From: Heliocidaris erythrogramma
Lineage: Eukaryota; Echinodermata; Echinoidea; Camarodonta; Echinometridae
DNA length: 64,000 nt
Reading direction: 5' to 3'
Assembly (NCBI GenBank): GCA_025617745.1
Contig: CM046871.1
Location: 34,652,294 to 34,716,293 of the forward strand
Shown: in pieces, positions 1-63,931 of the stretch
Numbering within the stretch: the stretch's first letter is position 1
Layout: every line of letters begins with the position of its first letter
Position numbers and translations under genes: made by a program
Notes under the pieces: generated by a model
What the model was told of the DNA's origin: nothing
Database searches by the model: none
The model's input: the letters and a program-made list of their open reading frames with translations, nothing else

Positions 1-21
1 GCTTTCATATTAGTCAATAGT

Positions 22-40629: not shown

Positions 40630-40669
<40 letters not shown>

Positions 40670-46600: not shown

Positions 46601-48346
46601 CAATCCCTCCAGGTGAAGTCACAGCCATGTCACCCTCTGGTTGGAGCTTACAGAGGTATTTGACAGAGAAGTCCTGTGCACTGGGCGATAAGACAATCGT
46701 TGCGAGACTATCAACCGATGTCAGCTCCAGAGAATGATCAGGGTGCTCGCTGAAGGTACACTTTCCACTAGAGTTTGACCATTCTACTCGGGTGATATCA
46801 GCATACAATTCCTGGGAACACAAATACCAGTCATGTTGCTTGTCAGTGATGTGAAATTTGCTTCAGGCTTTATTTTGTCAAACATATTTGAGAGACAAGG
46901 GCTTGGATGTTTGGGCCAGGATTGAAGTTATAGTGTACCAATCACCTGAAAAACCATTGGATTACAGCTAGAATGTAACCTCAAAAAACTTTATGTGACC
47001 TTCTGTGGGTCAACAATTAAGGAGTATGAAGAAAATAAAGTAAAACAGTTCAGTTGAGTGCGGGCCCTATTCTGTGAGAGTGCTTACTGGTCCATAGATT
47101 GGTCTACTAGCAAGTTGCTGTCATGTTTATTTAGAGAGTATTTAACCCCTTACATGTCACCAGATTTTTGAGCAATTGTCTAAAATGAACTTTCATGAGT
47201 TGAATATTAATGTTCAATGAGTTTTTTTCTTGAGCAAACTGGGCAAAGATTAATTGCATAAGAATAAATTATTGGAGGGGCAGGTTTCTGTATTTTTTCA
47301 AGCCATTCTGAGCCTAAACAAAATGTTCAACACTCACATTTTGGGACGGGATTTACCGCCCACGGCATGGTAGGGGTTAAACTTGCAATATCTCTTTACA
47401 GAATTAATAATTGAAGCTCATACTTTGAATATCGTATGGCGACATGAAACCCTTAACATACAGATACAGAGCAAAATATTTGTTGATGATTGGCACACTT
47501 TAAAAATTCATTTAATCCTACAAAATGCAACAGAGCAATTTTCCCAGCATGTGTCTTATCATCTTTTTGTTGTGTACATCTAGACATATTCATTTAAAGT
47601 AGCTTCATCATAGGGAAATCACAATGAAATTGTTGCAACTTTTAGTGCAAATAAAATTCCACCATAAACTATTCCTCAACATCAGAAAGAAATTATAATA
47701 TTCCAAGAGAGTATTACTGATAAAACTTTTTATTTGTTACTTAGTTTAATAAATATTAAAGAAATTAGAACTGTAAATTTAATCTTAAAATTAAATGCTT
47801 TAGACGGATTACAGAAAATGATCACTGTGTGTCATGCATTATGATTTATATTCAAATGATAAAAATTGTTTATCTTGTGTTCTTGGCAATATTTAATGTA
47901 AAAATCCTAGGTTTTAGTTTGAAAAGGCTTCATAAATTTTCTGAATATTAACAGAAGGGATAATGTACAGTACTTTCCCCACACACGTGCACACTTCCTC
48001 TTACCAATGGTATATCTCCTTGAGACGTTGCAGTGCAAAGGAAAGGGCTGGAGGCAAATCTGTTTCTGAACTCCAGAGCTGCCATAACCTTTGACCTGCA
48101 TCTGCTGGTGACAAAGCATGTCCTCTGTTGGGTCCTGGTAGAAGTATAGAGAGGATGACTTGGTCCTGGACCTGGTCCTAGACCTCGTTTGTTATACGGG
48201 TGTGAGACTCCATGGCCGGTAGGTGGATCGTAAATGAAGCAGGACCCACATGGGGAGAGCTGCACCCTGGATCCATCCATGAACATCATCTCCACTGCAT
48301 CATCACATGTCATCACCATGGAAACAGGCACTGCCTCAGAAGCCAT
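28658..48346 (-). CDS. C5orf34: C5orf34 homologue, whole gene model (7 exons plus 1 candidate)
   Basis: Exons in order are 48346-48005, 46811-46208, 45095-44864, 39992-39783, 39430-39364, 37844-37599, 34483-34392, and possibly 28709-28658. All seven firm exons have GT and AG borders and phases that join without a stop, giving 597 codons. The human protein is uncharacterised; I recall it carrying two domains of unknown function, one at each end. The sequence shows three strand-turn units with a D-G or N-G turn (MMFMDGSRVQL, IEIYPGNGDVL, IKGYFNDEVTM). These look similar to polo-box strands, but that is inference. No signal peptide or membrane segment is evident. Introns are dominated by repeats. 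The gene is divergent from the ceramidase. Confidence 0.8.
28822..28953. mobile_element. Hairpin MITE
   Basis: GGGGCCTGTAACATAAAGAG at the left is the reverse complement of CTCTTTATGTTACAGGCCCC at the right. The arms continue through repeated GATCAATCTTACGATC-type text. Length is about 132 bp and it is non-coding. In the model with candidate exon 8 it would lie in the last intron. Confidence 0.85.
29931..30390 (+). pseudogene. Non-LTR retrotransposon 3' end inside the foldback
   Basis: The reading frame ends FSEPTLWSHLPPHIIKCSSL then YSFKAKLR and a stop at about 30037. This matches the usual LINE ORF2 terminus (W..LP..I...SL..FK..L). About 320 bp further on, AAATAAAGTTGAATTGAAAA forms the terminal tail. 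The piece is 5'-truncated. Confidence 0.65.
31040..31700 (-). pseudogene. Second non-LTR retrotransposon 3' end inside the foldback
   Basis: Minus-strand text encodes a degenerate ORF2 terminus: GIPFLP then, in another frame, PEIKNMTLMYSFKRAAKNHL followed by IKQYS. A long AT-rich 3' region ends near 31040 in repeated AAATCAAAATAAAT. It is a separate element from 29931-30390. Confidence 0.55.
32544..34391. other. C5orf34 intron (if exon 8 is right) or downstream DNA
   Basis: No further exon found. A fragment of the SINE body lies at about 34080-34200 (TATCGGGTACC, CACCTGGGTGGAGAG, GTCTTGCCAAA). T/G-rich low complexity at 33240-33365 gives spurious Lys/Gln-rich frames on the minus strand. Confidence 0.5.
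34392..34483 (-). CDS. C5orf34: C5orf34 homologue, exon 7
   Basis: The acceptor CATTCTACATACAG precedes 92 bases encoding EVNDRETVFTVVLPGGCRKM and VTSLNPGAYL. The donor is AAG/GTTTGT. It enters in phase 0 and leaves in phase 2. It aligns in order and length with the human segment that has F.DG followed by I.H.EPYERY. The V..PGG.R arrangement resembles a beta-hairpin of polo-box type, which is my own reading and not an established assignment. Confidence 0.75.
34484..35255. other. Intron, no gene seen
   Basis: A GATGGGAGGTCAAT unit is repeated in tandem at about 34609-34652. AT-rich repeats with GGAAAGGAAATATATT text follow at 34850-35000. The Phe-rich antisense frames are repeat artefacts. 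Confidence 0.5.
35256..35839. repeat. 292-bp tandem duplication of a transposon end and its flank
   Basis: Units 35256-35547 and 35548-35839 are almost identical, starting TACGGATATAAAATATACAA. Each contains about 82 bp of flanking DNA and about 210 bp of the left end of the Tc1-like element. The duplication therefore happened after that element inserted. Confidence 0.9.
35338..37282. mobile_element. Tc1-like element rearranged into a 1.9-kb palindrome
   Basis: The ends CAGTTAACAACAAAATTATT and their complement at 37263-37282 are flanked by TATA. The arms, each roughly 700-900 bp, can be matched nearly to the middle through GGTATGAATAATTTTGAACA-type text, GATATCAGGCCA and CATCCTCAAGGAGATTG. 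The left arm, on the minus strand, and the right arm, on the plus strand, contain decayed text that looks like transposase 3' sequence. Both arms carry this same end, as if two transposon halves were joined head to head. It lies in a C5orf34 intron. Confidence 0.7.
37339..37460. mobile_element. Hairpin MITE
   Basis: AATGCCTCCGTTAGACAC and GTGTCTAACGGAGTCATT are inverted. The centre is the palindrome GGCTTCTTCAGGAAATGG paired with TTTCCTGAAGAAGCC. It lies 139 bp downstream of C5orf34 exon 6 in its intron. Confidence 0.8.
37599..37844 (-). CDS. C5orf34: C5orf34 homologue, exon 6
   Basis: The exon encodes 82 residues, starting HLARRVMSSLYARQSNPITQ. The core ILIERSIIPGLGQMEAYSNG and VIKGYFNDEVTMETI aligns with human LKESLIPSVG then YSDDKVHAIF.DG. 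The donor is TTGCAG/GTAACA. The acceptor region reads TTTCTTTGCAGAG: only the second AG (exon start 37844) keeps the phase from exon 5, because the first AG would give a stop within seven codons. About 28 residues before ILIER have no human counterpart. Confidence 0.75.
37845..39363. other. C5orf34 intron with one hairpin repeat
   Basis: A hairpin at 38080-38160 pairs TCGTCGCATCAGTG with CACTGATGCGACGA. A 52-bp tandem duplication with CTTTTTGCCATTGCAAGTAT occurs at 38608-38700. No exon seen. Confidence 0.6.
39364..39430 (-). CDS. C5orf34: C5orf34 homologue, exon 5
   Basis: A short 67-base exon with acceptor CTCTCTTTCAG and donor GGCAG/GTAATA. It completes an Arg codon and encodes LLQCVLVHQRTIGEGHNLCC then WQ. 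Human C5orf34 has ILQ then C, and HNYRICCWK, at the same place. This supports an exon too short to stand out by length alone. Confidence 0.75.
39598..39741. mobile_element. Hairpin MITE
   Basis: GCCCTGTTTCATAACAACTG and CAAGTTTCATGAAACAGGGC are inverted ends. The centre AGCTTCAAGGATTTCAGTAG is the complement of that in the 4600 and 45289 elements. It lies in the C5orf34 intron, 42 bp from exon 4. Confidence 0.75.
39783..39992 (-). CDS. C5orf34: C5orf34 homologue, exon 4
   Basis: The acceptor is CTTGTCTTAAAACAG and the donor TTCTAG/GTAATT. It encodes LFWDPIPSIEIYPGNGDVLT and continues through SFFRLVKV to YIIADLVRRG. Human C5orf34 has NSIEIYPGDGSVF and then a similar run to VRSLIK. Phases 2 and 2 match exons 3 and 5. 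The upstream intron carries a tandem-repeat element whose end is only about 10 bp from this acceptor. Confidence 0.85.
40003..41736. mobile_element. Repeat element with five tandem 330-bp units in a C5orf34 intron
   Basis: The ends GCTCACCTGAGG and CTCAGGTGAGC are inverted. The right end carries a CACGACGCACGACGGACGAC-like array before CAATAGCTCACTCGAGCC. The anchor TTTGGTTGAATTCCGATCAT starts at 40231, 40563, 40920, 41247 and 41578, giving periods of 327-357 bp. Most of the variation comes from a C-tract in each unit, the longest being 36 C at 40631-40666. Open frames rich in Pro follow the period and are not genes. Confidence 0.75.
41880..43391. mobile_element. 1.5-kb TIR element with AAAACGTCCCC subterminal repeats
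   Basis: A perfect 8-bp duplication CAGATTAC flanks it (41872-41879 and 43392-43399). The ends GCTTACCAGTCAAAACGTCC and, in complement, GGTATCCGGTCAAAACGTCC are followed by about five more CAAAACGTCC repeats on each side. Inside, a 170-bp segment is duplicated at 42556-42727 and 43009-43182 (both contain GTTTTGAAAGTGCACCCAAA). The 8-bp duplication suits a hAT-type non-autonomous element. There is no transposase. It lies in a C5orf34 intron. Confidence 0.8.
43400..44863. other. C5orf34 intron, no exon seen
   Basis: An A-rich AAAT/AAAAT low-complexity tract lies at about 44290-44420, after a C-run. Short frames elsewhere have no recognised motif. Confidence 0.5.
44864..45095 (-). CDS. C5orf34: C5orf34 homologue, exon 3
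   Basis: The acceptor is CTCTCTATACAG and the donor TTTACAG/GTACAT. It encodes DETSDHDGN then LPPSLPLSCAQSHLHKHHWR and ends VLVVGGVVYR. Human C5orf34 has LSLSCPVPHLHRW and later VWYKGVTYRLT in the same order. The start codon base is supplied by exon 2 (phase 1) and the end is phase 2. Confidence 0.85.
45289..45435. mobile_element. Hairpin MITE
   Basis: GGGCCCTGTTTCATAAAACT and TTTTATGAAACAGGACCC are inverted ends. The centre has GAAATCCTTGCATCTGATTG, as in 4600-4736. It lies in a C5orf34 intron. Confidence 0.75.
45624..45801. mobile_element. Hairpin MITE with GGGGTGTTGCAAGAAA ends
   Basis: ATGGGGTGTTGCAAGAAACT and its counterpart TTTTCTTGCAACACCCCAT are inverted. Internal TTGCAATCGATTGCAA-type text also pairs. 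The 116- and 92-codon frames across it arise from this repeat. Confidence 0.8.
46208..46811 (-). CDS. C5orf34: C5orf34 homologue, exon 2
   Basis: The acceptor GTGTTCCCAG and the donor AATG/GTAAGA bound 604 bases. The exon begins ELYADITRVEWSNSSG (human: DITEVRW) and continues to FSVKYLCKLQ (human: FTVHFLCKVS). It has a poorly conserved acidic linker, then FWYTWVVQNHSVSHCPWYWR followed by YPLDLLL (human: YTWVKQCWSVAACPEEWKYPL). The match of three separated blocks makes this the clearest exon of the gene. Confidence 0.9.
48005..48346 (-). CDS. C5orf34: C5orf34 homologue, exon 1 (start codon)
   Basis: It encodes 114 residues from MASEAVPVSMVMTCDDAVEM to TATSQGDIPL and ends at TTG/GTAAGA in phase 0. 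The block MFMDGSRVQLSPCGSCF (about residues 21-37) corresponds to human YVDGSTLQLSPCGSEF. RTCFVTS.....ALEFRN...CPFL-like text follows, as in the human protein. The ATG at 48346 gives the expected N-terminal distance to that block. A 5' non-coding exon may exist upstream. Confidence 0.85.
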
Positions 48347-49239
48347 CGCTGCTGAAGTAGTAGTTATAGACTACACTGTAAATACTAAAGATTAAAAGAC
48401 AGAAATTGTATTTATGTAATTATATTAAAGATCACATTGCAAGAAAATTCCATCAAAATAAATATTGGCTAAATACTTATTATTGCATAGATGGCATAAA
48501 TTATACAAGGTTATCCAAATTCAACGCTTGGAAACATTTGAATTAATGATTATTATCAATTATAAAACGGTAAAATACAGCCCCCGATATAGCAGCTGAA
48601 GAGCTCCTTGAACGCTGCTGAGATGTGTGACGACACACGAAGGACCAGTCCTGTCTAAGCAGACGATGTCCCATAACATCTTACACATTTTTCAGTGCCT
48701 GTTTTGTCATCTCCTCTTCACTTATTTCTCTTACTTGACTAGCGTCAGTCTTAACCCATTGCATACGGGAACCGGGTGGTCCATGTATTAACCTCATGGA
48801 AATGAGAGAATTCAGTAGTCAACGGGTTAATGTTAGTCTGTTGCCTCACTCTTAACTTCGTGTATGGTATTATTTTGATGAAAAATGCAGCGTTAAAAAA
48901 ATAAAGGAATCAGTCACTTGTAAACAAAATAAGACGCCATTGTATTTTCAGCTGCTTGCACCGGGGCATGTTCGGCGTTTCAAGAGGGAACGAATACAAT
49001 CTGTGATATTATTCGGAGGGCTTTTCAATTTGAAGATGGGGTTTATTTCATTGATCATTGACCCTTCTCCTGTGTATACAATCAAACGGTTTTAGTTATC
49101 AGAATCAGTTTCACTTTCCCTTTTAGAATGGTGTGAAATAAGGTCATGTTAAATATACCAAACTCTTTATAATTTGATAAATAATTCCTCTAAAGATTAA
49201 TTTTATATTATTCCGGATATTCCATTATTCTAAAGAGTG
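48347..49239. other. Upstream of C5orf34; no promoter motif called
   Basis: AT-rich sequence between the two divergent start codons. I see no convincing TATA box or CpG island. A short inverted repeat near 48755-48835 pairs TTAACCCATTGCATACGGG with complement text at 48820 (CAACGGGTTAA) and may be another small MITE. Confidence 0.35.
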
Positions 49240-50362: not shown

Positions 50363-51158
50363 CTATGGGGCGCCAAGTGTAAAGTGCCTATTCCGTTACA
50401 AAATTGCCTCATTTCGTGACAAAATTCACTCAAAACTTCTAAAAATTCTATTTTGTAACAGAATGAATTCTGTTACAAAATGAAAATGGACAAAATGATT
50501 TTGTTAATTCTATTTTGTAACAGAATGAATTCTGTTACAAAATGAAAATGGACAAAATGATTTTGTTAATTCTATTTTGTAACAGAATGATTCTGTTACA
50601 AAATGAAAATGAACAAAATCATTTTGTCCTGTCCATTTTGTAACAGCTATAATTTGGTTACAGAATGAAATGGACAAAATTATTTTGTCCTGTCAATTTT
50701 GTAACAGAATGATTTTGTTACAAAATAGAATGGACAAAATTATTTTGTCCTGTCAGTTTTGTAACAAAATGAACCGTTGTTCAATAATTTTGTAACAGAA
50801 TAGTTTTGTTACAAAACGACATAGACAAAATCATTTCGTCCTTACTATTTTGTAACAGAATGATTTCGTTACAAAATGAAAATGGACAAAATTATTTTGT
50901 AATGTCAATTTTGTAACAGAATGATTTCGTTACAGAATAAAATGGGAGTGTAAAATATTTTGTCACAAAATAAATTTTTGTTACAGAATGAAAATGGTCA
51001 GAATCATTTTGTTACAGAATAACCTTTCCAAATTCATTTTGTAACAAAATGAACCGTTGTTCAATAATTTTGTAACAGAAGACAGTTTTGAGTGAATTTT
51101 GTCACGAAATGAGGCAATTTTGTAACGGAATAGGCACTTTACACTTGGCGCCCCATAG
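50363..51158. mobile_element. Foldback element filled with TTTTGTTACAAAAT palindromes (family F5)
   Basis: Ends of about 73 bp, starting CTATGGGGCGCCAAGTGTAA, are near-perfect inverted repeats. GCTA flanks both sides (50359-50362 and 51159-51162). The interior consists of about a dozen units of TTTTGTAACAGAATGATTTT and GAAAATGGACAAAAT, nearly all themselves palindromic. No protein is encoded. Frames that cross the ends (50218-50433 and 51088-51471) are artefacts. It ends 126 bp before the ceramidase start codon, so it sits in or next to the promoter or 5' UTR. Confidence 0.85.
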
Positions 51159-51284: not shown

Positions 51285-51399
51285 ATGGCTCCTGCTCCGC
51301 CGTCTCCAGATGATTCAGAAGGATATTGGGGTCCTCCAACATCTACCCTCGACTGGTGTGAAGAGAATTATGTGTCTTCATATTACATTGCAGAATACT
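51285..51399 (+). CDS. ACER3: Ceramidase exon 1
   Basis: It encodes residues 1-38, [20 protein letters not shown] then [18 protein letters not shown], plus the first base of Trp39. The start follows AAAATC and gives a protein start nearly collinear with human ACER3 (four residues longer). The donor is CT/GTAAGT at 51400. That donor lies in the 9- to 11-bp target duplication of a T1 element. Confidence 0.93.
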
Positions 51400-54300
51400 G
51401 TAAGTATGGCTAGAGTGCCCAAGTCTGCGCAGTGCCCATGTCTGCGCAGACGCGTAACTGCGCGATTCTAATAAAACAAAACACGCAACGAACACAAACT
51501 TTTCATCTTTATCATAGCGATAAGTATTCATGCAAAAACGAGTCATAATAATGAAAAAAGGTCTTATTTCAAACCTTTTATTCACAAGCCTCAAAATGTT
51601 GTCTTTCACGTCAAAACTCCCGAACTGCGTGTAAAATGAATGAGTGCGCAGACATGGGGCACCATTGATTTTGCAATGTTGAAATGACACAGCCACCGTT
51701 TCTTGTGAAAATGGCATTGTTCTTGCTCTAATTTTGATAAGATTTTTTGCAGACTTACTCTTTAGAATATCAGGAATAATATAAAAATAAACTTTAGAGG
51801 AATATTGAAGAAATTCTTGTTCATTTTCAGGTCAAAACCTTAGGTGCGCAGACATGGGGCTCCCCATCATACTGTAAGTGAAAGAGAGAGGGGGGGGGCG
51901 GAGAGGGGGGGGGGGAGGGGGGAGAGATATAAGTGCTCCTTCAATGATGGAAATTGAATTGAATTGAATTGAATTGAAAATTAGTTACTGTGGTGGATCT
52001 CCGATAACAACGGAGGAAGGATACGAAAGAAGAAGGATACGAAAGAAGAAGAACAGAAGAAGAAGAAGAAGAAGAAGATGAGTGATTGCATTCACAGTAC
52101 ACTCATCTTGGTTCCCAAACCAACTGGATTTTTTCCTTTCCATTGCCATTGCCATTGGACTGGTTGTTAGGACTATCAATGAGTATCACTGAAGTGTAAC
52201 ATAGAAAGAATGAATTGTTTTCTGGACTAAAGACTAAAGCTTGAACAATTCGAATTAGTGCTAACCATGCTAACAGTAACAGCTTAAGTTAGAATTAGTA
52301 TTAAAGTTAGAAATTAGATTAACACAAATAACACTGTAGTGATAATATGTTTCAACATCGGTAAGTCTTTTTCAGTCAACACATTGTTAATGGTCGTTAA
52401 TTAATTTCTTAAACACTTGTATTGTAGTCTTCTTCTTCTTCTTCTTCTTCTTCTTCTTCTCCTCCTCCCTCTCCTTCTCCTTCTTTTTCTTCTTTTTCTT
52501 CTTTTTCTTCTGCTTCTTCTTTCTCTCCTTCTCTTTCTTCTCCTCCAACTTCTCCAACTTCTCCTCCCTTCTCATCCTTCTTCTTTTTACTCTGCCTCCT
52601 TCACTCCTGAAGATTCTTGTAGTCAACACAGTATTAAGATTTAAGGTCATTAAGGTAGAGGATTTAAGGGATTCATTGAATTATTATTTTGATTATGCCC
52701 ACATTCCCCACACCATTAGGAATGCAGCAATGTTTTATAAAGTTTTATAAAGATGAAAATCTCGCCAAGTTTAATCATGATCATGGGACTTTGATTGTTG
52801 TTGTACCTTTGCGAACAAGTTTGGTTTTTTTTCACTGAATTTTTTTTGTGTGTTTTTTCTTTCTTTTCATATCTTCCTTTTTTTGTATGCAGGGAATACA
52901 ATTTCAAACCTGTTTATGATTGTGTTACCCATAGTCTCCAGTGTGTACATGTGGAAAGAAAAGGTAGAAATGAGATTTATATTGGCTAATCTTGGTCTGC
53001 TAGGTAAGTTAATTTCTATTCAACATGTTATATTTTCATATAGTAGTAATTAATATTGAATAATATTAACATTAATTCAAAAGTAATATTATATTAATAT
53101 TTTGTTTTGGTATAAGCCTAAGATATGCTTCCAAAGTGATTTTTGAAATTATACTTTGTGTGTTTCATATAACGATTTATACACATGTATGTGTATAATT
53201 TACAATTATACACATACATGTAAATTGTTTAGAAACTTGCTTTTTAATATAATCTCGGAAAGAGAATTGATGGTAATATAAGTAAAAACTCTTCAAAATT
53301 TGATAAAATTGTTTGAATTTGTTCCACCACTGAAAAGATTCCTGACTCAGATATTTAAAGCCTTCATGTATGATACAATTACTTTTCATTTTTTTTAATC
53401 CACCTCGAGTTTGGACGAATGAAAATAGAAATCTGTATAAAGTTGTAATGGGCATACAGTCTGATAAGCTTTACAGCTGATTGAATAAGGAAAGGAAGCA
53501 TATTATTATCTGGCTTGAAACTGAGCCATATGACTGGGAAATTATAAAAGCAAGCAATTTGCATCTTAGTCAAACTTAGCGGCCAAATACTGCACCATTT
53601 GCATTCTAAGCAAACCGTTTCTGTATATTTATATGTGCATTTTATTCATCATTTATTCAGTTGTTGGAATTGGATCATGGTCTTTTCATATGACATTGCT
53701 GTATGGCAATCTAACTTAGAAGGCCAAATACTGCGCCATTTGCATTCTAAGCAAAGCAGTTTCAGTATATACACTCATCCAAAAAAGTAAGTTCCCCCCT
53801 ATAGCATTTTTGGATATTTCTCAAAAAGTAATTTACCGATTTTCATAATTCAAATGGGAATGGATAGGAAATTTTATTACTCATAACATGAATGGCATAT
53901 CATTGCCACCAGATATCATTATTGGTGTAAAAAAATGCATTTTATGTCAAAATGCATGGGGAAAAAAGTTGCACTTAAGGTTATATGAAGCATATTGTGT
54001 ACATTTCCTATGCAAGTTAGCGAATGACCTTTTTAAATTGTTATGTAATTCTCAGGAATTTCTTCAGGTACAATATGCTTCCCTATTAAACTGTATGCTC
54101 ATGAAAAGAAAGAGATAGAGAAATATGCAATAAACCATGCTTAAAAGTTCAGAATCATGAGTGATTGTTTGATTATTTGTGTAAAAGTCAATGCAAATCA
54201 CTAAAGTGCAACTTTTTTTTCCATGCATTTTGACATAAAATGCATTTTTTCACACCAATAATGTTATCTGGTGGCAATGATATATGCCATTCATGTTAAA

Positions 54301-57300
54301 ATTCCCAATCCATTCCCGTTTGAATTCTGAAAATCGGTAAAATACTTTTTGTGATATATCCAAAAATGCTAGGGGTGAACTTACTTTTTTGGTTGAGTGT
54401 ATATATGTGCATTTTATTCATCATTTATTCAGTTGTTGGAATTGGATCATGGTCTTTTCATATGACATTGCTGTATGGCATGCAGGTATGTAGGAATGAA
54501 TTTGTTTTGTTCAACTGTTTTGAATTGCATATATGCAGTGATGTGAAATCTATGCGTACAAACAGACATTGTTTCATTGTTTAAGCTGGGTCCGCTCGCT
54601 ATTCATAGAAAACCGCTATTCATTTAACACGCGTTATGAATAGCGGTCCTTATGAATAGTTATGAATAGTGGTCCTTATGAATGGAGGTCCTTATGAATA
54701 GCGAGGTAATTTGTGTATGGTTTGCTCGCTATTCATACAAAACCGCTATTAATTTAGTCACGCGTTATGGATAGCGTTCCTTATGAATATGTGGTCCTTA
54801 TGGATAGTGGTCCTTATGACTAGCGAGGTTACCCCGTTTAAGCTATGCTGTTTTCATGCATGTATAGAAGTCGCTTTCATTTTTCTACCATTTTGAATTA
54901 CATATATTGAATGTAGTGATGCAAAGGAAACCCAACCATGAATGTGAACAGATGTTGTGTCATTATTGCACATCCAGTATGCTGTTTTCATTCAAGTTGC
55001 CCCAAAGAAAATAAGGTCCAAATTCAAATACACAATTCTCTGTCCATGTGTTAATGATATCATGTGATGCAATGACAAACTTTCATTCTCGATTATCTTT
55101 TTGTTTCATTTCTTTGTTGTTTCCTTTGGCTATCATTGATTTCTATAATTTATTAAGCCACAAAGCAGATACTGTAGATGGACTTTGATCTTGTAATTTA
55201 TGGGTTAATATACCAGAAAGGAAGCATGCAATCATTTTAATGCTCTTGTTTCTTTTTGTTGTCTTTTGTTCTAAAAAAAGAATTGTGCTTATAATAAATA
55301 TCATAATACATTAAATGAACTATGTTCATTTCCAATTTAACCTGTTCACTTTGCAGCAAATGTAGTTCACTTTTTGCAATCCTAAAGCCATGCTGATTTC
55401 TGTCCTTTTTAGTCAAAACCATATTTACATTGACTTCTTCTATCTGTTTCCATTTCACTCTGCATGTCTGCACGTACCTTGCACACACTGCCAATTAAGA
55501 TGTTTGTATAATCTTTGAAGTACTGTATTTTGATTACACAGCCAAGTCAACGCACTATTTGCCTCAGTGATTTGCTAAGGTATAACGTACCCACACAATA
55601 GCTCTATTGGTTCAATCGTTTGTGAAAGCTAGTCTACCCTCATCAGGTTGGCACAGTTCCTGCCTCAGTGACTTGCCAACCCACCATGATACTATGTTTA
55701 TATTCCTTTGGTAAAGCTTGTCTACATCTTTCTGGTGTATCTTATTTAAATTATCACTCCACCCTTGTATAGTATGCTGCATTTATGTTCACTTACTGCT
55801 CATCTTGTTAAAAAAAGCTGTGGAAGATAAATTGCTAGCAATATTAATAATTAATACATGCTCTTTTAATAAGTTCAGTTAATGTTTGATGAGTAAGGTT
55901 GTACCAATTGTGCAAACAAACTTTGTTTGCTTTTGTCCCTTTTGGGTGTGTAATTAGAGAAGATGCTGTTTAAACATCACCTGTAGTTAATGGATGAGCC
56001 AGAACTTTGTTATCAGAGTATAGACGTTTTGGTTTCCATGGTTTATGAGAGCACTGTAGTACTTGTCCTACATAGCTTGGAGCCATCCAAGAACATAAGA
56101 ATAGATGATTCAATGTACAGTGAAACCTGTATATAAAGACTGCTCAAGGGAGACAAGAAAAGTGGTCTTTATGAGCAGGTGGTCTTTATGTACAGGTTAC
56201 TTTAATACACGTTTCAATGAAACACACTTTTCAAGGGAAACAAAAATTGTGGTCTTTATAGACAGGTGGTCTTTCTATACAGGTGGTCGCTAAAGCAGGT
56301 TTGACTGTATGATGTAATCAGCAAGGTGCATGGCTGTCCCTGAACAAAAGCGGGAATATTTGAACTATTATTTAGCATACTTGATGGCCCCCTGTAATGG
56401 CAACTGAGCACTAATGTTCAACTCTCCGAATCAGTGTATAGTTGATGGATAAACCAGTCATGAACTTTCTATTTGATCAGCATTAAAAAAAATTACTAAT
56501 CCACATGCATGCATATGAAATGTATTTTCTAATTTTTCTTGAAGCTACTCTGCTATTACAACAATATTAGGCTTACATTGAAATTTGCTTATAGTCATAC
56601 TGACAAGACACCTAGGTACCAAGTTAAGAAAGTTCTTTATTCTTCACTGGGCAATTACATGTAAAAGAAATGCCTCAGGCAGGTAATTTATATATAACAA
56701 AAGTACACCACTGGCCATTTTCCTGTATGTTGAGGAATGCCATTGAGTAGTCAAGTTTCCACCGTCAAATACATAGAACACAATAGTTTGTGAATTGAGG
56801 CTTATAAACATCAATAGAATGTTTGATAAAGAATTTCTCAGAGATTTTGGCATATTGTGTTCAACCTGAAAAAAAAAACATTTCAGCTATGACCTTATCA
56901 AAGTACTGCACTTTGCTCTTTATAGTGAGGACCTTTGTTGTCAAAATGAAATTTATATAGTTAAAAACAAATTGTAAAATATACTTCTAGAGGAGTTTTC
57001 CCATGTATCGCTCAATACGTAGGTAGAAAAAGAATGTTATTAAGTCTTTCCTATCTCTTTTTCCCTATTGGATTTCTTTATTGTACTTGTAGCTGCTGGA
57101 TGAACTACCCATGGTGTGGGGGTCTATATCAATGGTATACATCAGGTAATTTACATTCCATTGATGATGGTGGTGATGATGATGATGATGATGATGATGA
57201 CGATGGTGGTGGTGATGATGATGATGGTGATGATGATGATAGAGATGATAAGCTACCCATGGTGTGGGGGTCTATATCGATGATGTACATCAGGTAATTT

Positions 57301-57607
57301 ATATTCCATTGATGATGGTGGCGATAATGAAGATGATGATGATGATGGTGATGATGATGATAGAGATGATAAGCTACCCATGGTGTGGGGGTCTATATCG
57401 ATGATGTACATCAGGTAATTTATATTCCATTGATGATGGTGGCGATGATGAAGATGATGATGATGATGATGAAGATGATGGTGATGATGATGATAGAGAT
57501 GATAAGCTACCCATGGTGTGGGGGTCTATATCGATGATGTACATCAGGTAATTTATATTCCATTGATGATGGTGGCGATGATGAAGATGATGATGATGAT
57601 GGTGTTG

Positions 57608-57639
<32 letters not shown>

Positions 57640-57859
57640 AGAGATGATAAGCTACCCATGGTGTGGGGGTCTATATCGATGATGTACATCTGGTAATTTA
57701 TATTCCATTGATGATGATGATGATGCATGATGAAGATGATGATGATGATGGTGATGATGATGATAGAGATGATAAGCTACCCATGGTGTGGGGGTCTATA
57801 TCGATGATGTACATCAGGTAATTTATATTCCATTGATGATGGTGGCGATAATGAAGATG

Positions 57860-57891
<32 letters not shown>

Positions 57892-60800
57892 AGAGATGAT
57901 AAGCTACCCATGGTGTGGGGGTCTATATCGATGATGTACATCTGGTAATTTATATTCCATTGATGATGGTGGCGATGATGAAGATGATGATGATGATGGT
58001 GGTGGTGATGATCACTGATGTAACTTTGGTCAGTCCAGACATTGAGTAGGCACCAGTATTAGGGGGTGCAGAAGGCAGGGCAAAAGTCTTGGATGAAATA
58101 GGAATTAGCAAGCTAGGCCATTGATAGGGGAAGGTTGTGGGAGAGGGTTGCATCAGCTTCTTGTCATATTCCCTTTCTTCCTTTTCTTTTTCTCCCCGTC
58201 TCTCTCTCTCTCTTCTTTTCTTTTTTCTTGCCATTTGAGATTATTGGGGCATGTGTTCCCCTGTAGCTGATCCACTGATAATGTTGATAGTGATTCTGAT
58301 GATGATGACACAGAGGCGGCAGAACATTGGGCTCGGACAATGAAAGTGGGGATGCACCTTTTGTTTGGCGGACAAAAGGTGCCCCTCCACTTCCATTGTC
58401 CGAGCCCGATGTTCCGCCACCTCTGGATGACAATGATATTGAGGAGATATTTGTTTCTATTTATTTCAGTTTTGAATGCTTTTCCAAGCCAGGCCAATTG
58501 AACATGAAGCTGCTGGTATCTCTCCTAGTCTACTGTGCTTTGACAACCGTCATCTATCTGACAGTCATCAATCCACTCTTTCATCAGGTATATCACACCT
58601 TTGATTGAGTTTCTCTTCAAAAATTTTACCACTAAAGTCTCATTTGGATAAGACATGATAAACTGTCTGGAAAGAAAAATGGCACACCAAACAAGATGAG
58701 AGTAGTTTAGTGGGAGTCAAGAATCTGTGTATCAAGCACACATATATCGATGGCCTTCTGTTTTTTTTACCCCACTAGTTTGTCATTCACTAATAAGATT
58801 AAAAGTTTTCATTTTGCTTTATTTTTTCTCTCTTTTTTTAGGGGGTTTGTTGAGTCTAGTCTTAAAAGTGCTTAATTGTGTCGTCTTTTTGTATATCATT
58901 AATTTGCAAAATTGAAGAGAGTTTTGCAGCAGTTTTCTTTTTAGCACTCACTTAAAGTACAGTATTTCAGCCGGACTATATTGTTGCTAGCTGAAAGGTG
59001 TTAAAGAGACTTCTTTTGCAAGGCAGGATTTTCCAAAAATCTTTTTAATAGATAATGAAAATGGCTTGTGATGAATACAAAGATGGTTAGTAGTACTGCA
59101 AAATCAAAGAATATCTTTTAATACAGAAATACTGAAGCTCTGTCTTGCACTTATAATGTCAAACATGTGTTACTCTGATGAGTGCAAAAGGAAAAGCATA
59201 CCATAAGTAAAGCGTCAGACCTCACCAATATTGAGCCTGATCAGTTAGTCACAGACGGACATTTGATTAAATTTTGAAAGTTTGAATGCCTTAAGAAAAT
59301 AAATATTTAATTGAAGCGAGCTATTTTATGTTTCACTATGAAGGCCATAACTAATAAGTAATTGAAATTCGATAAAATTTGGTGGCCATGGTTGCCTACT
59401 AAAATTATAATCCATAAAATATTCACCGTCACAGACGGACAAAATGCATACTCTTAACCAATCAGGCTCGACTATAACAAGATTTTTCATTAAAGATACA
59501 CCTTACAGTTATCCTATTATTAACAGGCATGAGCTTACTCACATTCACACAACTTAGCTGGGTGTACCTTTAATTGAATATCTTGTTATTATTATCGGTG
59601 GGGTGTGACCAGCCCCTGTTAAAGACAAATGCTTCAGTACATCTCAATTTAGAGCTTTTCGACAAAACAATATCAAATTTGGTTGGTTGTTTTTTTGTGT
59701 ACCGGTATGTGTGCGACTTTGACTTCAATGTCATTGTTCAATTGTTGATTTGTTTCCCCCATTTTAGGTTGCGTATGGGTTTTTAGTAGTCTTGCTCATT
59801 GGACGTGGTATATATTTGTTACGGTAAGAGAGCTTACAGAGTGCTGAAGGTGGACATCTCTTTTTGCCTGTAGTCTTTCATCGCGTTATAGCCTGGCTAC
59901 CAAGCTAATTGCGTTTTCTCCCTTATCACATAAATGCCAACCATTCCTATTTTGGAAGAATTACCCATATTTTGGGGACTTGAAAGTGAAACAAAGATTG
60001 TGAAATCTAGATCCCTCTCTTTTTCCAAAAAACTTGTTTGAAGGCATGTGACCCCAAAAATAAAAATCACTCAGTGTGACCTTGGACTATTGTTTCTCTC
60101 TGGTATCGCTATTTAATGGCCACAAACTAAGTTCTCATCAATTTTGTATAGTCTGTAGGCTAATTAGTATTTTCAAAATGTCTATACAGAATGTTTATGA
60201 GAAGGTAGAATGGCTTTTCTTGGCAGCTAGGCTAGTATACACATTTCGGCTTCTTGATCATGCTCTATCATCATCACCTCACTTAACTCGGTGGCATGTA
60301 ATCATATATAGACATACTGGCTAGTATTCATGAATCATACTAATTTTAGTCCAGGTTTAAGTGGCTATATTTACTCAGGGGTGGATCCAGGATTTTATGA
60401 AGGAGGGGGCACAATATTACGGAAAAAATATTGACAAGCAAAACTAAGTTCATCAATGACAAGCAAAAAAAAGGGGGAGGAATCAGCATTGGGGGGTATT
60501 TTTACACCCAAATTCTCCACTTTTTTTGCGTCAGGGGAGGGACGCGGGCCCCCGGTGGATCCACCCCTGTATTTAGACCACCTATTTATGGAGTGCCAAA
60601 GTTTCACCCTCATCTGGTAAAAATTGAAATTGTTCTTTAGCTACTTGTAGATGAATAGACAAACTTCATGTCACCTTTTCATTTCATGACCAGAACCATT
60701 TTGTTGATTCATGCAGAATTACAGTAATCTTGACATGATAAAGAGCTTGACAGTTGGCACTCCATAAGTTAAGGCTAAATTGATCCAGTCCACCTTTATG

Positions 60801-63800
60801 AGTATAAGCCACTAATTTTAGTCCAGTTTTAACTTGGTCTTTGAGGGTCATGCCGTTTTTATGGAACACCAAATGTGAGTCTTCTGCTCTTATCAAGTCT
60901 TTGAGGGTCATGCCGGGGGGGGGGGGCACTTTGTATATAGTGTGCGGTGGGTATGTGCCACCATTTTTACACTCAAATTTCCATTCCAAAGCATACCATT
61001 TTTTATCTTGTTGAGAAAAAGAGAGAAAACCGTTCCAAAGCACCGCTTTTTTTCATTCCGTCGTTTCGGCCGTTCTGGCCCGCCCCGCCCATGGACTTGC
61101 CATGACACACAGTGTATTAAGCGAATGGGAGTGTGTGTGTGTGGGAACCAGGGTAGCGTTTCATCAAACGGTCATTACTACAAGTTCGCCGACATCCCAT
61201 TGAAACACGTGTATCAAAATTAACATGCGTTTCAATTGGATGTCGGCGAACTTGTACATATAAAGGTTTGATAAAACGATGCCCAGTTCCGTAGCATCAT
61301 ATTTATATTGTAATCCAGTTCCAAAGATCCCCGTTTTCAAAAATGTTAGTAGTTCCGAGGACCATCCTTTTCATGATGCGGTCGTTCCGAAGCCCCCGTT
61401 TTGTCTTGCCGGTGGCACATACCCACCACTTTTTGGGTCGAGTCCCCCCTCCGGGGGTCATGCTTCTTGGGTTTTTGCAAGTGGATCTTCTACAAATATT
61501 TATTCCAGTTTGATGGCTCTCTCTCTCTCTCTGTCATTAAGTCCCACTTCATTTCTCTTTTCAGACTCTCCATCCTTTTCTCTTCATCGATGCTCAGCCT
61601 GTTACTATCCATCCCATTCTGATTTTCAGTTGATGCTTTCAAGAAAAAATTTAATCAATTGCATTCATTCCACACATCTTGTTTGAACATTTGTGTACTA
61701 ACTAACCATCCACACTTCATGCAAAATCTGGATATTCAGTTAGAAGATTTAAAGCAATTCTTTGAGATATGGCCAGCTACATAACTTTATTTATCTAGTT
61801 AGTTCATCTAAAAATAAGAAATCTCTCAATATAACCATTGGCAAATGGTCATAGACCGCTTCTGTAATGTATACAGATTTATGCACTTATATTCTCTGAG
61901 CACCTAGTGACGAGCTATTCCATGAACCTGCGTTTCATAAATGAGCCTCAATGCTTGGAATCCAGTTTGCATACATTATTTGTTACTATGTCCAGCAAGC
62001 TTTCAGGTTGTCAAGAACAACCTTTGTTTGAAAGGTATGCATAAAATTTGCATAAAATTTGCATACATTACTGAAGCCTTCTATTGTGGACAGGAAAAAC
62101 CATTAGTCAATGACTGTATCGAAAAGGTTCTTTATTCTTGAAGGAAATAAATGGATAACAGATTCGTTGTATGGGGCACATCTCATGGAATCACACTTTA
62201 GATACCTGCAGTTAATCAATAAAACACACATTTATTCCACATTCAGTACAGTTACAGGTAAGTTGTTTTACAGAAACATATTGAAATTGTTTGATATAAT
62301 CTACCCCACCACTTTCCCTTTGCGAGCCAATATGTCTAGCTTTCTTCAAAATTGTACCAAAACTTGATCAATGCTTACTTTTCAAATTTCTGCCTTTCAT
62401 TAACCATCTATTATTTCACAAAATATTGTGTACAAAACTTGTAGGAAATTTATTATCATTCCTTATGATACCAAACATTATTATTTTACACAACTTTATG
62501 AATAAGAATTATTGAAAATTACTTTTTGTCCATTATTTTTAGGTTTCTCATTTGTTTACTATTGTTTAGTTTTGAAATATGTAAATATCTGTTTTAAAAT
62601 ATGTAATTTTCTCTGCAAATGTCTATGGTAGCATATAATTATAATCATATATTTAGGATGCTCGATTTAAGCTTAAAATTTTGATATTCATTGACCACCA
62701 TATACCTTTCCTGTGGTCGAGCTACTGGTGAATGAAAATGACAAATCTATCTGTCACATATACGTGACATCGGCACTGAAAGAGTTAAAAGAAGCATGAA
62801 AATTGAAACAGATCACTGAAGGTTTGAGCAAAATCCCATAAAAAATGAGGAAGGTATGAATTTTTGAAGTTGCAATCATTTAACCCTTTCGTGACCATTG
62901 ACCACATTTTGTGTTTTGGCTCAATAATTTTTGATTCAGAGCTCTAAAAAATATACCAGATGCATGAGTAGAAAGAGCAAAAATTTCTGCACAGACTATG
63001 TCCACTTTTCATGCTTTTGTTGCATTACCATATTGCGTTTGATGCCAGAAATTTTAAATACGAGAGTAAGGGTTAACATCTTTTAATTGGCAAAACACAT
63101 TGAGAGGTTCAAAATCATTGTTTTATTATCCAAATTGGCAATATTTCAACTTTTCAACAAAACTTCTAACGATGTATATTGTTTTCAAAGACATACATTA
63201 CACCTTATTAGAACCATGTAGCACTAAAAGAAAAATATTGTTGCCAGTATGAAGAACAAAATGTGATTAATTTAGCCCTTAAATAATTCTGTCATGAAAG
63301 GGTTAACACAAATTGGCAACTACGTGACATATCTTGCGAGCTCCACATCCATTTGCCCTGTACCCCAAAAATCATTAATTTCAATTTTCTTAGTTTCTGA
63401 TGAAGGAATAAAGTTGTTTCATTCAGGTGTTGTGTGAAAACATGTACAATGATTATATCTAAGGTGCATGTATGTTTGAATATTTTCTTTAGAGAAAATG
63501 GAAATTAATGATTTGGGGGGGGGGTCCAGGGCAAATGGGAGAGGCGCTCGCATGTGACGGAGTTGCCAATTTGTGTTTGATTGATAACAACTTCAAAAAT
63601 TCATAACTTTCTTATTTCTTGATATACTTTGCTCAAAACTTCTTAATTTTTGATGACTTACCAAATGACGTTGGCTAACAATTTCATTTCAAATTCATGT
63701 ATACATTAAATCCTCACAGAATAGGAATACCACTTTTACCAAGCAAGCTATCACCAACGTCTTTAATATTTGTTTATTTTGTTAGTTAATATCTTCCTTT

Positions 63801-63931
63801 TTATGTGTGTTTTGACTGTACAGAAACTATGGAAGGCATATGAACAAGCTTCTTTACGCCTACTGCACCGGATTGTATGTCTTTGCTTTTATTCTTTGGA
63901 ACATCGATAACAACCTGTGCCCAAGTATAAG
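51285..63931 (+). CDS. ACER3: Alkaline ceramidase, ACER3-like, 7 exons, 3' incomplete
   Basis: Exons 51285-51399, 52893-53003, 54433-54485, 57093-57145, 58470-58587, 59768-59823 and 63824-63931 join in phase to 205 residues. Alkaline ceramidases are seven-transmembrane ER/Golgi enzymes that hydrolyse ceramides to sphingosine and fatty acid. By analogy to the human ACER3 structure, the calcium-site residues are D23, W24, E26, N28 and E37, all present. H85 (in SWSFHMTL) and D96 (in LLDELPM) are the conserved active-site residues. Hydrophobic stretches at about 40-58, 67-80, 100-110, 122-145, 152-168 and 180-195 fit the membrane segments. The final about 60 residues, including the two other zinc-binding histidines, lie beyond the window. 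Introns are unusually rich in mobile DNA. Confidence 0.93.
51406..51870. mobile_element. T1 element (copy 2) at the exon 1 splice donor
   Basis: 465 bp, starting ATGGCTAGAGTGCCCAAGTC and ending CATGGGGCTCCCCATCAT. The 9-bp ACTGTAAGT is present directly on each side (51397-51405 and 51871-51879); 11 bp match if the terminal AT is counted. It closely matches 11044-11505. Insertion duplicated the last two exon bases plus GTAAGT. Confidence 0.9.
51871..52892. other. Ceramidase intron 1 remainder
   Basis: G-rich low complexity lies at 51888-51926. TTGAA repeated five times at about 51953-51977 resembles a LINE or SINE tail. GAA repeats occur at 52045-52078. A long CTT/CTC tract at 52429-52570 gives Leu-rich and Lys/Glu-rich artefact frames. 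No exon seen. Confidence 0.6.
52893..53003 (+). CDS. ACER3: Ceramidase exon 2
   Basis: The acceptor TTTTTGTATGCAG and the donor CTAG/GTAAGT bound 111 bases. It completes Trp39 and encodes [20 protein letters not shown] then [16 protein letters not shown]. The start of the first membrane segment, W-N-T-x-S-N-L, is the family hallmark. Confidence 0.93.
53571..53770 (+). pseudogene. Partial upstream duplicate of exon 3
   Basis: A 141-bp segment is duplicated. 53661-53708 repeats exon 3 up to TATGGCA after an identical acceptor (TTTATTCATCATTTATTCAG), but the last codon and the splice donor are missing. Read in phase from exon 2 it gives [16 protein letters not shown], then NLT and TAG at 53717-53719. 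The second unit was later split by the foldback element at 53772-54399. Confidence 0.88.
53772..54399. mobile_element. Long-arm foldback element (family F1, copy 2) in ceramidase intron 2
   Basis: The left end CACTCATCCAAAAAAGTAAG and the right end CTTACTTTTTTGGTTGAGTG are flanked by TA. The arms are about 180 bp and include TGCCACCAGATATCATTATT. It ends 33 bp before exon 3. The same family lies at 8112-8723. Confidence 0.8.
54433..54485 (+). CDS. ACER3: Ceramidase exon 3
   Basis: 53 bases encode V76 to Q93, [17 protein letters not shown], with H85 expected to bind the catalytic zinc. The acceptor is TCATTTATTCAG and the donor CAG/GTATGT. The upstream partial duplicate has the same acceptor, but only this copy has a donor. 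Confidence 0.93.
54588..54835. mobile_element. 248-bp element with 9-bp target duplication in intron 3
   Basis: GTTTAAGCT flanks it exactly (54579-54587 and 54836-54844). The ends GGGTCCGCTCGCTA and, in complement, GGGGTAACCTCGCTAG are inverted. The interior is a tandem pair of about 120-bp units with TGAATAGCGGTCC-type text. Confidence 0.8.
54845..57092. other. Ceramidase intron 3 remainder
   Basis: It contains the MITE at 56118-56307 and otherwise AT-rich sequence without exons. Short frames have no recognised motif. Confidence 0.55.
56118..56307. mobile_element. TA-flanked MITE with CAGTGAAACCTGTATATA end
   Basis: The left end CAGTGAAACCTGTATATAAA and right-end complement CAGTCAAACCTGCTTTAGCG are inverted and flanked by TA. 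Units of GTGGTCTTTATGAGCAGGTG type repeat four times inside. The style is that of Tc1/mariner-like MITEs common in marine invertebrates. Confidence 0.75.
57093..57145 (+). CDS. ACER3: Ceramidase exon 4 (functional copy)
   Basis: The acceptor TTATTGTACTTGTAG and the donor ATCAG/GTAATT bound 53 bases encoding [17 protein letters not shown] and two bases of S111. D96 corresponds to the conserved active-site aspartate of human ACER3 (D92). It leaves in phase 2, as required by exon 5. It is the only one of seven exon 4-like copies that has LLDE and a good pyrimidine-rich acceptor. Confidence 0.92.
57105..58013 (+). repeat. Minisatellite made of exon 4 copies and GAT repeats
   Basis: Six extra 41-bp copies of the last part of exon 4 lie at 57253-57293, 57374-57414, 57507-57547, 57652-57692, 57777-57817 and 57904-57944, with spacings of 121 to 148 bp. 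Each is preceded by GATAGAGATGATAAG and followed by GTAATTTATATTCCATTGAT and a GATGAT tract of variable length. All six have TCGATGATG where exon 4 has TCAATGGTA, so they descend from one diverged duplicate. The fourth and sixth extra copies (57652 and 57904) end ATCTG instead of ATCAG before GTAATT. Confidence 0.95.
58014..58469. other. Ceramidase intron 4 remainder
   Basis: Sequence between the exon 4 array and exon 5. A T/C-rich tract at about 58165-58225 gives Arg/Lys-rich artefact frames on the minus strand. The MITE at 58311-58425 occupies its end. Confidence 0.6.
58311..58425. mobile_element. 115-bp hAT-like MITE beside the exon 5 acceptor
   Basis: The ends CAGAGGCGGCAGAACAT and, in complement, CAGAGGTGGCGGAACAT are inverted. 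Pairing continues through GGGCTCGGACAATG almost to the centre. GATGACA flanks both sides (58304-58310 and 58426-58432). CAGNG-type ends with a duplication of about 8 bp are hAT-like. Only 44 bp separate it from exon 5, so the presumed branch-point zone is in or next to it. Confidence 0.85.
58470..58587 (+). CDS. ACER3: Ceramidase exon 5
   Basis: The acceptor TTTCTATTTATTTCAG and the donor CATCAG/GTATAT bound 118 bases. The exon completes S111 and encodes [20 protein letters not shown] then [23 protein letters not shown] and the closing P-x-F-H-Q match human ACER3 at the same spacing. Confidence 0.92.
58588..59767. other. Ceramidase intron 5
   Basis: AT-rich with no exon seen. Short inverted text around GACGGACA (59253 and 59433) bounds a possible small repeat at about 59220-59480. 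Confidence 0.5.
59768..59823 (+). CDS. ACER3: Ceramidase exon 6
   Basis: 56 bases with acceptor CCCCATTTTAG and donor TTACG/GTAAGA encode [18 protein letters not shown], a membrane segment, with Arg169 split to the next exon. Human ACER3 has VMYGMLVFTLVLRSIYIV here. Confidence 0.9.
60376..60569. mobile_element. hAT-like MITE
   Basis: The ends CAGGGGTGGATCCAGGA and TGGATCCACCCCTG are inverted. The flanks TATTTACT and TATTTAGA agree in six of eight positions, as expected for an aged 8-bp duplication. Length is 194 bp. Confidence 0.8.
61153..61285. mobile_element. Hairpin MITE
   Basis: GGTAGCGTTTCATCAAACGG and the complement of the right end (GGCATCGTTTTATCAAACCT) are inverted. The inner arms TACAAGTTCGCCGACATCCC and complement pair fully. 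It interrupts the composite repeat around it. Confidence 0.8.
62800..63650. repeat. Copy of the 26392 repeat family, split by a T3 MITE
   Basis: GTTTGAGCAAAATCCCATA, GTATGAATTTTTGAAGTTGC, CACAAATTGGCAACT and CATTTGCCCTGTA also occur around 28110-28500. An internal stem is visible between ATCATTAATTTC and GAAATTAATGATTTGGG. The middle is interrupted at 62884-63302. Confidence 0.6.
62884..63302. mobile_element. TTAA-flanked MITE (family T3, copy 2)
   Basis: CCCTTTCGTGACCATTGACC at the left and CATGAAAGGG at the right are flanked by TTAA (62880-62883 and 63303-63306). It has the same orientation and text as 21735-22159. Confidence 0.8.
63824..63931 (+). CDS. ACER3: Ceramidase exon 7 (last in window)
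   Basis: The acceptor TTTTGACTGTACAG and the donor ATAAG/GTAATA bound 108 bases. They encode R169 then [20 protein letters not shown] and [15 protein letters not shown] plus two bases of residue 205. W-N-I-D-N-x-x-C is the strongly conserved end of the sixth membrane segment in ACER3. The gene continues to the right. Confidence 0.92.

Follow-up and report, generated by a model that had tools for sequence, protein, structure and literature searches.

What are the six extra copies of an exon end that lie inside intron 4 of a ceramidase gene in the sea urchin Heliocidaris erythrogramma? The gene occupies the forward strand of a 64,000-nucleotide (nt) stretch of contig CM046871.1 (assembly GCA_025617745.1, positions 34,652,294 to 34,716,293); this whole stretch is called the window here, and all coordinates are counted from its first letter. 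An initial annotation, made from the letters alone, took each copy for a potential poison exon. We arrive at a different reading, which we consider probable: an intronic GAT microsatellite drove a partial tandem duplication of exon 4, leaving a row of decoy 5' splice sites that would normally be removed together with intron 4.

The gene and the array behind its fourth exon

The exons were located by tblastn with a human ACER3 query and joined at the splice junctions (Table 1). Spliced together, exons 1 to 7 (plus strand, 51285-63931) give an open frame of 204 residues, and the gene continues past the end of the window. The spliced exons match the Pfam family Ceramidase (PF05875) with an E value of 7.5e-58 and 196.4 bits, against a curated cut-off of 32.5, and their product matches the solved structure of human ACER3 at E 2.1e-57. 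The ceramidase identity first proposed is thus borne out, and the gene looks like an ACER3-type alkaline ceramidase. Among the best 120 of 415 homologous proteins, the closest come from Lytechinus variegatus (82% identity) and Diadema setosum (68%), both echinoids, with many others at 53% or less. The predicted active-site residues S81, H85 and D96 are found, without variation, in all 17 aligned sequences; the two C-terminal His residues fall beyond the window. The Asp that exon 4 encodes, in the motif LLDE, aligns with Asp92 of human ACER3, which is described as catalytic, with activity abolished on its mutation (PMC9436119).

A 26-nt core taken from exon 4, CTACCCATGGTGTGGGGGTCTATATC, occurs seven times, always on the plus strand: at 57105, within exon 4 itself, and at 57253, 57374, 57507, 57652, 57777 and 57904. 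The core-to-core spacings are 148, 121, 133, 145, 125 and 127 bp. No further site with up to three mismatches lies elsewhere in the 64 kb, and the maximum in 100 dinucleotide shuffles was 0. The core search therefore recovers what had been described at this locus, a 41-nt 3' part of exon 4 that recurs with its donor six times at 121-148 bp, separated by GAT repeats. Two amendments are needed. Exon 4 is 53 nt long (57093-57145) and only its last 41 nt are closely repeated; and the unit is larger than exon end plus donor, as it also holds the start of the intron and a GAT tract. In full, each unit runs from the closing 41 nt of exon 4 through the GT donor and about 16 nt of intron into a GAT tract of variable length that ends in GATAGAGATGATAAG. 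In all six copies, BLAST homology to exon 4 starts at exon position 7, the G of GATGAACTACCC, at the GATGAA encoding the catalytic Asp-Glu. AAG stands directly before every copy and GT directly after it.

The copies resemble each other more closely than they resemble exon 4. Across the 41 exon positions, copies 1, 2, 3 and 5 differ from exon 4 at three sites and copies 4 and 6 at four, while any two copies differ at 0-1; the three differences from exon 4 are common to all. The 28 nt that follow the exon part differ at one site (three in copy 4). At one position exon 4 encodes Val, as do Lytechinus and Diadema, and the copies Met, so that Met is probably the derived state. Tandem Repeats Finder (TRF) returns periods of 121, 127, 133 and 145, overlapping rows that belong to one array of head-to-tail, near-identical units. 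This confirms a sub-exon minisatellite. GAT tracts bound every unit, and a 20-nt GAT pattern (up to two mismatches, both strands) matches the window at 66 places, all of them within 57163-58002.

Might the array be a product of the assembly, its copy number coming from misassembled GAT-rich reads or from two mixed alleles? Simple repeats and the high polymorphism of urchins both hamper assembly of such arrays. Moreover, a repetitive urchin gene family has been reported as incorrectly assembled (PMC5103432). Here, however, the spacers between copies vary in length and in substitutions, which a stuttering single unit would not produce, and by sequence the copies make up a type of their own, distinct from exon 4. 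We give an artefact little credence, although mixed alleles may have contributed.

The RNA of the copy 1 unit is no more stable than its shuffles, of which 187 in 200 reach an equally good or better fold (z = +1.22). No Rfam family reaches its gathering score within the window, and ARAGORN found no tRNA. A phage collection left the array unmatched at E 1e-5, a weak control, since the locus is animal. Intron 4 also contains a fold-back at 58311-58425, shortly 5' of exon 5, with 54-nt arms in which 47 of 54 paired positions are identical.

Splice signals and reading frames of the copies

A cassette exon carries a 3' splice site with a polypyrimidine tract before it and a 5' splice site after it. 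Using a simple position model, we scored donors and acceptors and ranked the acceptors among the 3377 AGs of the window. The 5' splice sites are in place: GT follows six of six copies, and the donor score equals that of exon 4 (8.56) in copies 1, 2, 3 and 5, which are identical to the exon 4 donor from -8 to +8. The statement that all copies follow AAG and end in a usable GT thus stands for the AAG and the GT, but copies 4 and 6 end in CTG|GT rather than CAG|GT and are weaker (6.56). Convincing 3' splice sites are lacking by both composition and model. From -20 to -4, C/T makes up 29% ahead of each copy versus 59-82% for the six real acceptors, the AAG sitting in purine-rich sequence. The copy acceptors score -7.7, at about the 9th percentile of AGs, far below every real acceptor (5.24 to 10.59; 90th to 99.5th percentile). 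By these measures the copies look like donors without convincing acceptors, seemingly unable to act as ordinary exons. The extra donors, if used at all, would more likely lengthen exon 4 than form separate exons.

This bears directly on the poison-exon proposal, in which one of the six copies would be spliced in after exon 4, a TGA would lower ceramidase output, and copy number would tune the effect. Its frame arithmetic is correct. When joined in silico after exon 4, any of the six copies keeps the proposed phase and gives ...YPWCGGLYR and then the TGA; a copy in place of exon 4 keeps the frame and loses LLDE with the active-site Asp, also as proposed. Nor is there any shortage of GT donors. 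The acceptors described above are what fail it, and we rejected poison cassette exons as the leading reading because the copies lack convincing ones. The homologue search is silent on such isoforms: the best of the 120 proteins listed, of 415, is 82% identical, so the gene's own products are not among them. Overall we judge the proposal very improbable.

The frames also show what use of the extra donors would do. Extension of exon 4 to the donors of copies 1-6 would produce exons of 201, 322, 455, 600, 725 and 852 nt, and every extension ends ...MVYIR*, with a TAA immediately behind the codon split by the normal junction. Skipping of exon 4 leads to a stop almost immediately. Could the 5' splice sites of the array then be functional as a set, with leaky choice of copy donors in place of that of exon 4 sending a regulated share of transcripts to nonsense-mediated decay (NMD)? 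The four donors identical to that of exon 4 and the immediate stop on extension in six of six cases are what such tuning would use. In contrast, two of the six copies have weaker donors, and splicing often prefers the donor that is closest to the acceptor. We regard such tuning as unlikely.

The same junctions allow a traceless alternative. Exon 4 and copies 1, 2, 3 and 5 share the sequence CATCAG|GTAATT, which could be a dual-specific (AGGT) splice site. Were the exon 4 donor spliced to the CAG of such a copy, an identical donor would be re-formed, and the intron could be removed stepwise with the mRNA unaltered. The AGGT of a dual-specific splice-site array is found in exon 4 and in four of six copies, and of the 29 AGs in the array none scores higher as an acceptor than the four CATCAG|GT sites. 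Their score is just 1.84, however, less than any of the six real acceptors reaches and near the 72nd percentile of all AGs. In favour of the idea, human AGGT sites used in both ways are reported to match the consensus less well than sites with a single use, and human introns spliced at dual-specific sites to be 8.4-fold enriched in tandem-repeat genes (PMC10809524). Stepwise removal nevertheless seems distinctly improbable.

Origin of the array and a mirror-image duplication at exon 3

How, then, would the array have arisen? In the reading we prefer, the GAT microsatellite just 3' of exon 4 would have driven a partial tandem duplication and later amplification. The breakpoints would lie in the exonic GATGA of the catalytic Asp-Glu and in the intronic GAT tract, and for this reason the units would comprise the 3' end of the exon, the donor and the first intron bases, with no acceptor. 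Unequal exchange or slippage would afterwards have yielded the six near-identical units. Three shared differences from exon 4, with 0-1 between copies, are what a single older duplication with later amplification should leave. The array would normally be excised with intron 4, its copies acting as decoy 5' splice sites and not as exons, and probably seldom used. Rare use of a decoy would give a longer exon 4 with an early TAA, and the transcript would be expected to undergo NMD. The array is mechanistically ordinary, and most likely a near-neutral outcome of GAT-repeat instability.

Several points weigh against this reading. The frequencies in the splice model are approximate vertebrate values, so only the large score contrast is to be trusted; and by C/T alone, 17% of 3378 AGs are equal to or poorer than the copy acceptors. 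Exon 4 is only 53 nt long and has the weakest acceptor of the six real ones (5.24), while the 201-nt exon made with the copy 1 donor would not clearly be of a less favourable size for exon definition; leaky use of the extra donors must therefore be reckoned with. The purine-rich spacers could serve as splicing enhancers. Finally, GATAGAGATGATAAG, which stands ahead of each copy, is neither a plain copy of exon 4 nor (GAT)n, so the junction that began the array was not an entirely simple one.

A second partial duplication lies close by. The stretch 53630-53708 is identical to 54402-54480 at 79 of 79 nt; this upstream copy has the acceptor and the first 48 of the 53 nt of exon 3 but no donor. 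The duplicated flank, 53570-53628, which aligns after the first copy, is identical in 54 of 61 columns (five mismatches, two gaps). Between the halves of the second duplication copy a transposon-like element, bounded by TATATA, has been inserted. An exon 3 that began at the upstream acceptor and ended at its normal donor would run into a stop. The adjacent 53-nt exons 3 and 4 thus carry partial duplications in mirror image, each with a breakpoint inside the exon. A second duplication with an in-exon breakpoint means that events of this kind are recurrent at the locus, with the spliced frame kept open, and the pair appears to fit a high background of such events better than it fits design. The absence of divergence over 79 nt, versus seven differences in the flank, may reflect selection on the upstream exon-3 copy or its gene conversion.

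A bolder combination can be drawn from both exons. With a duplicated acceptor upstream of exon 3 and duplicated donors downstream of exon 4, the pair of catalytic exons would be bracketed by decoys, and the essential 53-nt exon 4 would be backed by a microsatellite-driven bank of 5' splice sites that varies in copy number. Either allele length would fix the share of transcripts with an immediate stop, or the array would be removed stepwise at dual-specific AGGT sites without a trace. We hold this to be rather improbable.

Table 1. Features of the ceramidase locus, in window coordinates
Feature	Position	Strand	Basis
Ceramidase exon 1 (coding part)	51285..51399	+	tblastn, splice junctions
Ceramidase exon 2	52893..53003	+	tblastn, splice junctions
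First copy of partial exon-3 tandem duplication: intron piece 53570-53628 plus 53630-53708	53570..53708	+	sequence identity, alignment
Transposon-like element, terminal inverted repeats of 214 and 205 nt	53766..54405	.	inverted-repeat alignment, 53766-53979 / 54201-54405
Ceramidase exon 3, intact, 53 nt; Ser and first zinc His	54433..54485	+	ACER3 alignment, tblastn, splice junctions
Ceramidase exon 4, 53 nt, donor CAG|GTAATT	57093..57145	+	splice junctions, alignment
GAT-rich tract, exon 4 to copy 1	57162..57252	+	TRF, period 3 at 57162-57249
Copy 1 of exon-4 3' part, donor CAG|GTAATT	57253..57293	+	
Copy 2 of exon-4 3' part, donor CAG|GTAATT	57374..57414	+	
Copy 3 of exon-4 3' part, donor CAG|GTAATT	57507..57547	+	
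Copy 4 of exon-4 3' part, donor CTG|GTAATT	57652..57692	+	
Copy 5 of exon-4 3' part, donor CAG|GTAATT	57777..57817	+	
Copy 6 of exon-4 3' part, donor CTG|GTAATT	57904..57944	+	
Intron piece and GAT tract at array end	57945..58013	+	TRF, unit alignment
Ceramidase exon 5	58470..58587	+	tblastn, splice junctions
Ceramidase exon 6	59768..59823	+	tblastn, splice junctions
Ceramidase exon 7, last within the window	63824..63931	+	tblastn, splice junctions

Other repeats occur in the window. A tandem array at 50444-50934, whose units of about 61-62 bp are rich in TTTTGTAACAGAATGA, lies about 350 bp 5' of the ceramidase start codon. At 40220-41592, within the 2-kb bin of highest G+C content in the window, complex 26-mers recur three to five times at spacings of 327-357 bp. 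On the minus strand, 46107-48370 holds pieces of a C5orf34-like gene (PF15025, PF22833), divergent from the ceramidase gene.

Known parallels and what the array offers

Among the matches listed, the open-access titles and abstract openings on ceramidase, exon or donor duplication, minisatellites and dual-specific sites held no account of this array. One close parallel is the Sp185/333 genes of the purple sea urchin, in which GAT repeats bound tandem segmental duplications (PMC5103432). There, as here, GAT short tandem repeats edge tandemly duplicated segments in a sea urchin. The Sp185/333 units, however, are about 4.2-4.6 and 7.1 kb and mostly whole genes (PMC5103432), whereas ours are about 130 bp and consist of part of an exon with its donor. 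In earthworm metallothionein genes, duplications of the fourth exon are absent from the final transcript and minisatellites lie in introns (PMC12783039). The likeness is in duplicated exon material and intronic tandem repeats, the exon duplications there not entering the mRNA; but those exon duplications (clone Lr6F14) are separate from the first-intron repeats, which come from other clones (PMC12783039), whereas here the unit itself holds the partial exon.

Tandem AGGT motifs are shared with the dual-specific splice-site array of human UBC, but the UBC units are coding and frame-neutral (PMC10809524), and those at this locus are intronic, 121-148 bp apart, and bring a stop on retention. Intron gain by tandem duplication has been described in potato RdRp, over an intron-exon boundary (PMC4974935), and in Drosophila, via coding tandem duplications (PMC2891723). 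As in both of these, a tandem duplication has moved splice-site sequence to a new place; unlike them, no new intron in coding sequence is evident here, and the copies lie within an existing intron. In a survey of C. elegans, an intronic minisatellite is tied to regions of multiple splicing decisions (PMC4039745), which leaves room for a regulatory role of the array.

With its seven near-identical splice donors in a row, the array is a natural test of donor choice by cells. Should it vary between individuals, it would form a natural dose series of 5' splice sites at growing distance from one acceptor. The distance dependence and the proofreading of donor choice would then be measurable in a real gene in which a wrong choice means an immediate stop. 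The array would also widen the reported link between GAT repeats and duplication in urchins, from the kilobase segments of immune genes to the sub-exon scale.

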